A stretch of 35,267 nt of DNA, taken from NCBI GenBank assembly GCA_903834145.1, contig CAILHY010000028.1, positions 30,325-65,591 on the forward strand. Reading direction: 5' to 3'. A program made the position numbers and the translations under genes. This document shows, in pieces, positions 20,428-33,367 of this stretch; the stretch's first letter is position 1, and every line of letters starts with the position of its first letter. The notes beneath the pieces are model-generated. The model saw only the letters and a program-made list of their open reading frames with translations. It searched no databases and had not been told where the DNA came from. Source of the DNA: an uncultured Actinomycetes bacterium. GTDB taxonomy: Bacteria > Actinomycetota > Actinomycetes > Nanopelagicales > Nanopelagicaceae.

Positions 20428-20979
20428 TCAGATAGTAAAGAGTATGAAGTCCGCATTTTCACGAGTTTTGTCCAATGCGAAGTGCAAATCTTCATCAATT
20501 TGCCATTGACGCATATTCTCGGTAATCGCATCGCCATCGCGCAGGAGTACTCGCGATAGTCCGACTTCTTGGTCAACATCGAGCCAAATAGTGGCAGAGG
20601 CATATTCGCGAACTATTTTCTGTCCGCTTCCGACACCTTCAATAATCAAGAGATCACATGGAGAAATTTCCTTGGATGTACCGAAAGCATGCTCAGACCA
20701 GTTGTAAATAGGTAGCCATGTGGAACGTTGCTGTGAAAGTTCTTCCAACATGGCATGAAGGACGTCAGTGAGAGTGGAGCTCAGTGCGTTATCCCAACCA
20801 TCGTATATTTCATCCAGATGTATAACAGTGACAGAGCGGTCAACTGCCAATGCGAGAAAGAGTTCATGCGCGAGTGTTGTTTTTCCTGAACCTGCGCGAC
20901 CATCTACAGCGATTACATGCGTAGAGCCACAAGACGCTGGTGCCGTGAGTATGTCCTCGATGGCTCCTACTAGATGCAT
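20428..20979 (-). CDS. uridine-kinase-like P-loop kinase, coupled to the thiamine transporter gene
   Basis: A 183-residue small-molecule kinase of the P-loop uridine kinase/nicotinamide riboside kinase type. Walker A is GRAGSGKT (27-34), a Walker-B-like or substrate Asp lies in VIHLDEIYDGW, IIEGVGSG is typical of the family, and the LID-like segment LLRDGDAITENMRQW follows. The start lies 4 nt after the pnuT stop, with AGGAG overlapping that stop, so it is under the same TPP riboswitch. PnuC-type carriers need a kinase to trap their substrate; I infer this one may phosphorylate thiamine or a related compound. A generic AAA or uridine kinase is the conservative call. Confidence 0.8.
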   Translation of the reverse strand: MHLVGAIEDILTAPASCGSTHVIAVDGRAGSGKTTLAHELFLALAVDRSVTVIHLDEIYDGWDNALSSTLTDVLHAMLEELSQQRSTWLPIYNWSEHAFGTSKEISPCDLLIIEGVGSGQKIVREYASATIWLDVDQEVGLSRVLLRDGDAITENMRQWQIDEDLHFALDKTRENADFILFTI

Positions 20980-20983
20980 GCTC

Positions 20984-21568
20984 CTATTGTGCCTTCTTGA
21001 GCCACGTTCGCCAGCCAGCTACGGCAATGCCTACGAAGATGAGATACAAAAGCGAGGTCAGGTATTGACCTCCATGGAAGAATTGATACGTATACACCGA
21101 ATCGACGATAAACCATAAAGGCCAAGCCTCGTACTTTTCTAAAACCATAAATATTTGAGCAATAGCGCTTCCTACGAATCCAAATGCATCTGTTAATGAT
21201 GCTGCAGCGCCTATCTTCTTCAATACCGGATAGAGCAGCCCCCAAGAAAGTACAAAGGCGACAAGCCACATGATGCGCTCCTTGCGTGCCAATTTCGCTG
21301 GAGTCGCACCTTTGGCGCCCCAACCAAACCAACCCCAAACTCCACCGACTATGAAAATAATTTGCAGCGCAGCACTCGCAAAATATTTTTGCTCTAGAAA
21401 GAGAAAGCCATAAAGGGCGCTACTGATATTCCACCAATGCCACGTTTTACGCGGCCCTATGACCGCAAGCCCCACTCCAACGATGGAGGTGAGAAAGGCT
21501 ATGAGTTCAAGAAAGGATAGGTGGTAATTCCAGGCAGTGAAAACTGTGAACATGAGATTTATTTTCAT
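20984..21568 (-). CDS. pnuT: PnuC family transporter, predicted thiamine transporter PnuT
   Basis: A 194-residue PnuC-family membrane protein with about six to seven helices. It has the conserved aromatic-rich segments KTWHWWNISSALYGFLFLEQKYFASAALQ (split over helices 2-3), VWGWFGW, and PLWFIVDSVYTYQFF near the C-terminus. PnuC proteins carry nicotinamide riboside, riboflavin (PnuX) or thiamine (PnuT) by facilitated diffusion. The TPP riboswitch directly upstream strongly favours thiamine. The riboswitch ends about 12 nt before the ATG, with no separate Shine-Dalgarno beyond it. The next gene is a P-loop kinase. Confidence 0.9.
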   Translation of the reverse strand: MKINLMFTVFTAWNYHLSFLELIAFLTSIVGVGLAVIGPRKTWHWWNISSALYGFLFLEQKYFASAALQIIFIVGGVWGWFGWGAKGATPAKLARKERIMWLVAFVLSWGLLYPVLKKIGAAASLTDAFGFVGSAIAQIFMVLEKYEAWPLWFIVDSVYTYQFFHGGQYLTSLLYLIFVGIAVAGWRTWLKKAQ

Positions 21569-21574
21569 TGGTGT

Positions 21575-21660
21575 GATCCATTCCAGATCCGCATTACCGG
21601 ATCGGTCAATCGGTCGACCTGGCGATCAGGTCCTCTCAGCCACGTGGGCTCCCGTGCTTG
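21575..21660 (-). promoter_or_regulatory. TPP riboswitch (THI element)
   Basis: Read on the minus strand, the region holds the conserved TPP aptamer parts in order. P2 5' strand is CGG, then P3 AGCC-CACGT-GGCT. The invariant CTGAGA follows, then a P3a hairpin ACCTG-ATCGC-CAGGT and the P2 3' strand CCG. TTGACC comes next, with the P4/P5 arm GATCCG-GTAATG-CGGATC closed by TGG. GCTGAGA and GGTAATG are the thiamine pyrimidine and pyrophosphate pockets. It ends right at the pnuT start region, so control is probably by hiding the ribosome site: high TPP, low expression. Confidence 0.88.
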
Positions 21661-21661
21661 T

Positions 21662-21668
21662 TACTCTA
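21662..21668. promoter_or_regulatory. overlapping two-way -10 between pnuT and crtYc
   Basis: The 7-bp TACTCTA contains TACTCT on the plus strand (21662-21667) and TAGAGT on the minus strand (21668 to 21663), both matching TANNNT. The minus copy would start transcription about 7 nt later, just before the riboswitch. The plus copy would give crtYc a leader of about 20 nt. A weaker alternative for crtYc is CAGAAT 6 nt before its ATG. Confidence 0.45.
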
Positions 21669-32237: not shown

Positions 32238-32259
32238 TTTGCCCGTTAATATGGGCAAA
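32238..32259 (+). promoter_or_regulatory. palindromic operator centred on the -10 of the aquaporin-arsC operon
   Basis: Perfect 7-bp arms TTTGCCC (32238-32244) and GGGCAAA (32253-32259) flank eight bases that contain the -10 hexamer TAATAT (32247-32252). Transcription would start near 32259. A repressor bound here would block RNA polymerase directly. CCCGTTAAT also occurs twice, 14 bases apart (32228-32236 and 32242-32250). No ArsR-type gene is in the window. Confidence 0.5.
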
Positions 32260-32307
32260 TCAGAACGCGCACTTAATCATCAAATTCTGGCACACGGGAA
32301 GGTTCTG

Positions 32308-32973
32308 ATGAAGAAGATTCTTGCAGAATTCCTCGGCACCATGGTCTTAGTTTCCGCGGTTGTTGGATCAGGAATTATGGCGCAGAATCTCACGCGTGAT
32401 GTTGGTCTTCAACTCCTGATCAATGCTTTCTCCACAATTGCGGCTCTGTGGTTGCTCATACTTCTTTTTTCTCCGGTGAGCGGTGCACATTTCAACCCCG
32501 TGGTTACCCTTTCAGAAATATTCTTTAAACGAATTTCATGGTCTCTATCTTTAGCCTATGTAAGTGCCCAATTACTCGGCGGGTTTGTCGGAACAATTAT
32601 GGCAAATGTCATGTTTAAACATCCAGCCATATTTCCATCACACCATATTCGAAGTGGCGCAGGGCTTTTCCTGGGAGAGATCCTCGCCACTGCAGGTCTG
32701 CTTTTCCTGATTCATATGCTGGGATTTCAAGGTAGATCTCATATCACTCCCGTAGCGGTTGCCTTATGGATTGGTTCGGCTTATTTCTTTACCTCCTCCA
32801 CCTCTTTTGCAAACCCTGCCGTTACCTTTGCAAGGGCTTTTAGCAATACATTTTCTGGGATCTCTATCTCCAGCGTTCCTGGATTTGTGTTGGCGCAGAT
32901 CGTAGGAGCAACTATTGGAACAATCGCTGCACTCTACTTTGGAAAAACTTCGACAGGAGAAATTAATGGATAA
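32308..32973 (+). CDS. MIP family aquaporin/aquaglyceroporin, likely arsenic-linked (AqpS-like)
   Basis: A 221-residue six-helix channel with both half-helix signatures: HFNPVVT (61-67), where NPV replaces the first NPA, and FANPAVTFAR in the second half, including the pore Arg. Aquaglyceroporins next to arsC let arsenite, made by arsenate reduction, leave the cell (AqpS in Sinorhizobium). ATG 32308 is chosen for its GGGAAGG 5 nt upstream; the TTG at 32239 lies in the operator. The end overlaps arsC by 8 nt, supporting a joint role. Confidence 0.9.
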   Translation: MKKILAEFLGTMVLVSAVVGSGIMAQNLTRDVGLQLLINAFSTIAALWLLILLFSPVSGAHFNPVVTLSEIFFKRISWSLSLAYVSAQLLGGFVGTIMANVMFKHPAIFPSHHIRSGAGLFLGEILATAGLLFLIHMLGFQGRSHITPVAVALWIGSAYFFTSSTSFANPAVTFARAFSNTFSGISISSVPGFVLAQIVGATIGTIAALYFGKTSTGEING

Positions 32974-33367
32974 GAAACCAACGGTCCTCTTTGTTTGCGT
33001 ACACAATGCCGGACGTTCGCAAATGGCAGCAGGTTTCATGCGCGAACTCTCGCAAGGCGCAGTAGAAGTGCTTTCCGCAGGATCTGCACCAAAAGATTCG
33101 ATTAACCCCGTTGCTGTTGAAGCGATGCTCGAAGTGGGTATAGACATCGCACACTATGTTCCAAAAGTTCTTACCACGGAGGCCGTGCTCGAGTCCGATG
33201 CAGTTGTCACAATGGGGTGCGGAGATGCATGTCCGTTCTATCCTGGCAAGCGTTATGAAGACTGGGTACTGGATGATCCTGCGGGGCAAGGCATTGAGTC
33301 TGTGCGTGTCATACGAGATGACATCAAAGCTCGCGTAGAAAAGTTATTAGCAGAGTTGTTGGCTTAA
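32966..33367 (+). CDS. arsC: arsenate reductase, low-molecular-weight phosphatase type
   Basis: A 133-residue ArsC of the LMW protein-tyrosine-phosphatase fold. The P-loop is CVHNAGRSQ (Cys11, Arg17), and further cysteines Cys85 and Cys89 lie in MGCGDACPFYPGKRYEDW. DDPAGQG is also typical. It reduces arsenate to arsenite, with thioredoxin or, as in Corynebacterium, mycothiol as partner; the sequence does not decide. AGGAG precedes ATG 32966. It is coupled to the aquaporin gene. Confidence 0.93.
   Translation: MDKKPTVLFVCVHNAGRSQMAAGFMRELSQGAVEVLSAGSAPKDSINPVAVEAMLEVGIDIAHYVPKVLTTEAVLESDAVVTMGCGDACPFYPGKRYEDWVLDDPAGQGIESVRVIRDDIKARVEKLLAELLA

Follow-up and report, generated by a model that had tools for sequence, protein, structure and literature searches.

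A two-gene operon in the window, the 35,267-nucleotide stretch of Nanopelagicales DNA analyzed here, very probably encodes a thiamine uptake-and-trap system that is repressed by TPP and in which a P-loop kinase has the predicted activity of making TMP for ThiL. Thiamine would enter the cell through PnuT by facilitated diffusion, as characterized PnuT proteins suggest, and the kinase, with thiamine as its presumed substrate and TMP as its presumed product, would trap it. The TMP would then feed ThiL, which makes TPP, and plentiful TPP would bind the leader RNA and lower the expression of both genes, probably at the level of translation. Sequence comparison shows the aptamer with its covarying pairs, the two genes as a consistent pair, an intact ThiL, the lack of ThiE and TPK, and a kinase that recurs beside other thiamine transporters. 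This comparative evidence argues strongly for the kinase being a thiamine kinase (thiamine to TMP).

Both genes lie on the minus strand, with 4 nt between pnuT and the kinase gene. According to the ORF list, the PnuC-like carrier is encoded at 20984–21568 (194 aa) and the kinase at 20428–20979 (183 aa); the coordinates, the spacing, and the identification of a PnuC-type carrier and a P-loop kinase in the initial annotation were all correct by the ORFs, PF04973, and PF00485. The carrier matches PF04973 in Pfam (E 8e-35) and passes TIGR01528 (70.6 bits against a cut-off of 42.45), and its AlphaFold model (pLDDT 92.2) has seven helices. That it is a thiamine facilitator is predicted from its TPP control, seen also in the sibling leaders, and from the auxotrophy of the lineage. 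The kinase matches PF00485 (PRK/uridine kinase, E 1e-11); PF04263, the ThiN/TPK catalytic domain, is absent from its Pfam matches, and it is a PF00485-type P-loop protein rather than one with the ThiK-type APH domain PF01636. Its best NCBIfam family, as for all 59 Nanopelagicales kinases, is PRK06547 (NF005115), titled "hypothetical protein," although the window kinase falls below the equivalog cut-off (105.7 versus 173 bits). Against the uridine kinase model TIGR00235 it lies far under the equivalog cut-off (50.1 versus 220.3 bits). The prediction of thiamine kinase activity draws on these families together with the AlphaFold model, the distribution of the gene, and its context. Elsewhere in the window (32239–33367), an aquaporin-like gene adjoins a gene for an ArsC-type low-molecular-weight phosphatase fold, possibly an arsenic detoxification pair.

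The leader of the operon is a TPP aptamer without the closing helix P1 (21563–21665, minus strand), composed of P2, P3, P3a, P4, and P5, overlapping the start of pnuT and carrying a probable ribosome-binding stretch in its 3′ strand; TPP binding is predicted. The initial annotation had read an aptamer directly from the letters and proposed a check against Rfam. The outcome of that check is mixed: at the gathering score of RF00059 (54.3 bits) there is no match in the window, but in a permissive Rfam search RF00059 is the best match, at full length, with 26.4 bits and an E value of 0.0033. The siblings indicate that this match is not due to chance. TPP was the sole RNA match at E < 0.5 in all 17 sibling loci searched across the order (31–45 bits), the leader motif is present in each of the 58 sibling loci with complete upstream sequence, and both sides have changed in 13 of 21 base pairs among 59 leaders. 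In a structural alignment of these 59 leaders, 95.9% of cells are paired, compared with 20–40% in slid controls. The conserved TPP core (CTGAGA, GGTAATG) and helices P2, P3, P4, and P5 are all present, and the GCTGAGAG and TAATGC columns of the alignment (A1) are invariant. A covariance model built from the clade itself (R1) scores the window leader at 96.8 bits, as the single match in its genome. The claim of a TPP aptamer is thus borne out by the siblings and the covariation.

The low Rfam score of the aptamer is likely explained by the absence of P1. At eight offsets tried, the complementarity of the flanks was no higher than in mismatched-pair controls, and a −10 promoter-like box, TAGAGT (21663–21668, minus strand), located 7 nt before P2, leaves no room for the closing helix that RF00059 includes. 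A TANNNT box ends 6–9 nt before P2 in all 57 sibling leaders, at 7 nt in 36 of them, whereas shuffling left such a box in 7.5 leaders on average and in 18 at most. From this position, the transcript should start at P2. The ATG is preceded, at a distance of 8 nt, by a probable ribosome-binding stretch, GGAATGGA (21577–21584, minus strand), which belongs to the 3′ end of the aptamer, as judged from the sequence and the alignment; in most relatives it reads GGAAGGAG or GGAAAGGGG (alignment A1). The Shine-Dalgarno-like GGAAGGAG within the 3′ strand of the aptamer suggests that the ribosome site would be occluded directly. The leader is therefore a candidate for a natural minimal TPP aptamer. A literature search for TPP switches lacking P1 found none, and, being poorly targeted, it says little. 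Several other TPP switches of the clade, located before thiB and cytX, resemble the window leader on their 5′ side. In the thiB leaders (L138–L143), the P2 strand CACGGG has a possible downstream partner, a CCCGTG-like stretch, and pairing of the two would likely make a switching helix.

The AlphaFold model of the kinase (pLDDT 96.9) has an intact P-loop and catalytic Asp. Among solved folds, the closest are uridine-cytidine kinase 2 (UCK2; VIA-align Z 18.8, rmsd 2.4, 164 residues) and, at Z 18.6 with rmsd 2.4 over 179 residues, pantothenate kinase (PanK); NRK1 scores lower (Z 12.4, rmsd 3.1, 140 residues). Invariant in the family are the P-loop, D56, Y59, E114, arginines, W62, and W94. The family profile contains nothing equivalent to the uridine-kinase stretch NYDHPDAFD (DHPxAFD), which aligns to it as an insertion. 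In UCK2 this stretch carries the ribose-binding Asp. Its absence fits a kinase that no longer binds a nucleoside; the shared fold does not itself show function.

Nanopelagicales (acI), which are auxotrophic for thiamine, rank among the most abundant bacteria of fresh water. In a sample of 121 genomes of the order, mostly MAGs, a PnuC of the window type is found in 110, and in every one of these the kinase follows directly downstream on the same strand. The initial annotation had suggested looking for thiN, thiL, and thiE in relatives, and the answer is clear: TPK (PF04263) occurs in none of the 121 genomes, ThiL in 119, and true ThiE in five, leaving 116 without it, the window's own genome included (weak PF02581 matches, at 18–30 bits and confined to the C-terminal part, were left out of the ThiE count). 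ThiC is present in two. The ThiL of the window's genome, encoded elsewhere in that genome, is an intact 317-aa ORF above the TIGR01379 cut-off. ThiL needs TMP. Where ThiE is lacking, the cell could obtain it only by phosphorylating thiamine or by importing TMP itself, which is not an expected cargo of PnuC-type facilitators. On this distribution and pathway gap, the proposal that the kinase acts on thiamine or a precursor is judged to be supported as a predicted activity. APH-family (ThiK-type) proteins are present in 96 genomes, that of the window among them, and in genomes carrying one such a protein could be the thiamine kinase. They are absent from 25 genomes, complete ones among these, and all 20 of the 25 that were checked individually have the P-loop kinase. 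A second, distant PnuC gene stands behind an FMN riboswitch (92.9–96.9 bits) in the window's own genome (L284 2133–2260, contig C22) and at loci L098 and L099; it corresponds to the PnuX noted for strain A4 in the passages found of Kang et al., 2017 (PMC5301498).

Exchanges of genes within the order offer natural experiments. The kinase is missing from only three genomes, all of one genus and all among the five with ThiE; the chance figure for this overlap is 3.5e-5 with relatedness ignored, and because there is a single kinase-less genus the relation reflects few evolutionary events. In G034, the one kinase-less genome examined at the locus (L097 9473–12759), the site between crtB and a Ser/Thr kinase gene (pknB), occupied by pnuT and the kinase gene in relatives, holds thiE and thiO-thiG together with a canonical TPP switch. 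Judged by gene order, the site is an in-place exchange of thiamine strategies. Members of this genus (g8) have a TPP-controlled CytX-like permease with ThiE, ThiO, and ThiG, and no PnuT. Six genomes from three genera have kept the kinase and lack PnuT, ThiC, and ThiE. A TPP switch precedes thiB in all six, followed by thiP in the five whose contig reaches that far, with one thiB-thiP pair confirmed by family search. ThiB-ThiP is a thiamine ABC transporter unrelated to PnuT. The two genomes with ThiC also carry ThiE and the kinase, and they are without PnuT.

Outside the order, the kinase profile matches 196 of 297 Actinomycetes-class genomes, about two thirds of a set to which the order itself contributes some genomes. 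Most sampled homologue loci there have neutral neighbors with no adjoining thiamine gene, and a TPP switch or PnuT near the kinase was absent at nearly all first-sampled loci, so some members of the wider family may act on other substrates. The full pnuT-kinase unit with the same TPP leader also occurs in one other family, not of the order (G248). Seven Micrococcales genomes, Aurantimicrobium sp. Ww43 and six others, have a TPP switch, ykoE, ykoD, ykoC, and the kinase gene in a row on one strand, and four of the switches score above the Rfam gathering cut-off. The six appear from sequence to share the family of Aurantimicrobium, Microbacteriaceae, and the arrangement spans at least three genera, provided that Aurantimicrobium is distinct from the two genera sampled. 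The Aurantimicrobium kinase exceeds the PRK06547 cut-off (184.7 versus 173 bits). The pnuT, thiB-thiP, and ykoEDC contexts indicate that the kinase accompanies three unrelated thiamine transport systems. With regard to the concern that it might occur mostly away from pnuT, the pairing in all 110 cases speaks against this within the order, but elsewhere the gene is often free-standing, or ends ykoEDC operons as in these seven Micrococcales. The claim for the class is less secure than that for the order, because most homologues elsewhere stand alone and the Nanopelagicales and Micrococcales kinases share only about 30% identity. Class-wide PF04263 matches are short (positions 6–44) and lie in ORFs of about 410 aa, which we take to be SteA-like rather than TPK; an anti-correlation of TPK and kinase is uninformative here. 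Such partial TPK_catalytic matches can mislead automated pipelines into annotating a thiamine pyrophosphokinase.

The reading of the kinase as making TMP has to be weighed against others. The lack of TPK in all 121 genomes, and the established pairing of PnuT elsewhere usually with TPK, would be in keeping with a kinase that converts thiamine to TPP in one step in place of ThiN/TPK. This is improbable, as it leaves unexplained why ThiL is retained in 119 of 121 streamlined genomes when ThiE is gone from 116, and enzymes of this fold superfamily (uridine kinase, PanK, PRK) produce monophosphates. The initial annotation also listed HMP and hydroxyethylthiazole as substrates, and transporters for HMP and thiazole are likewise found under TPP switches, so PnuT might import one of these precursors for the kinase to phosphorylate. 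Without ThiE, which is absent from 116 of 121 genomes including that of the window, the two halves cannot be joined; ThiC is absent from 119, and genus g8, which likely salvages HMP, has a CytX-like permease and ThiE/ThiO/ThiG in genomes that have neither PnuT nor the kinase. We regard import of a precursor as extremely improbable, and these two substrates as unlikely.

That the kinase is merely co-transcribed and acts on another salvage substrate, such as uridine or cytidine, nicotinamide riboside, or a pantothenate-like compound, would agree with its nearest solved folds, the uridine-cytidine and pantothenate kinases, and with the many homologues of the class that lie away from thiamine genes. 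It does not sit easily with the TPP switches that govern the gene in two orders alongside different transporters, with the missing NYDHPDAFD stretch in the family alignment, or with a score of 50 against a uridine-kinase cut-off of 220 bits. The kinase is, moreover, retained alongside ThiB-ThiP and replaced where ThiE exists, and we give another substrate little chance. Phosphorylation of thiamine to TMP remains the preferred reading.

How acI activates imported thiamine was unexplained, with ThiN/TPK missing and an APH-type ThiK impossible in a fifth of the genomes. The candidate kinase very probably carries out the first step from imported vitamin B1 to the active cofactor and would fill this gap in acI, possibly also in many other actinobacteria. 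If it is a thiamine kinase, a large family of "hypothetical proteins" found in about two thirds of the sampled Actinomycetes genomes could be annotated. The broadest form of the proposal, that P-loop proteins of the PRK06547 type are class-wide thiamine kinases and the main thiamine activators of Actinomycetes, which would lack TPK, and that Nanopelagicales combine one with a P1-less minimal TPP switch carrying its own ribosome-binding site, has in our view an even chance of holding.

One half of the finding, the transporter and its riboswitch, was already known, since PnuT under a THI element had been proposed in four acI genomes (Kang et al., 2017; PMC5301498, in the passages found): the lineage, transporter, riboswitch, and thiamine auxotrophy are the same. 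Those passages do not mention the adjacent kinase and leave thiamine activation unexplained. The suggestion that the pairing was undescribed therefore applies to the kinase, for which the literature search found no description of a P-loop thiamine kinase, and not to a carrier under a TPP switch; what is new, as far as found, is the proposed kinase role, which would make this a new enzyme family for a known activity. The PnuT of Shewanella woodyi and that of Bacteroides with TPK are likewise TPP-controlled PnuC-family carriers paired with a thiamine-trapping enzyme. Their partner is a one-step pyrophosphokinase, whereas here it is a candidate P-loop monokinase together with ThiL. The ykoEDC thiamine/HMP ECF operons are a further case of TPP-controlled B1 transport, and the seven Micrococcales versions end in the kinase. 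With the superfamily of uridine-cytidine kinase, phosphoribulokinase, and pantothenate kinase, the enzyme has in common the fold, the P-loop, the catalytic Asp, and the LID arginines, but it is only ∼20% identical, lacks DHPxAFD, and has invariant W62 and W94 instead. The NCBIfam family matched by all 59 Nanopelagicales kinases carries no functional name. Published reconstructions name ThiK, ThiM, and ThiN as salvage enzymes (PMC6593275). ThiK (E. coli YcfN) has the activity predicted here, thiamine to TMP with ThiL acting next, but its APH/protein-kinase-like fold is unrelated to the P-loop, uridine-kinase-like fold of the Nanopelagicales enzyme.
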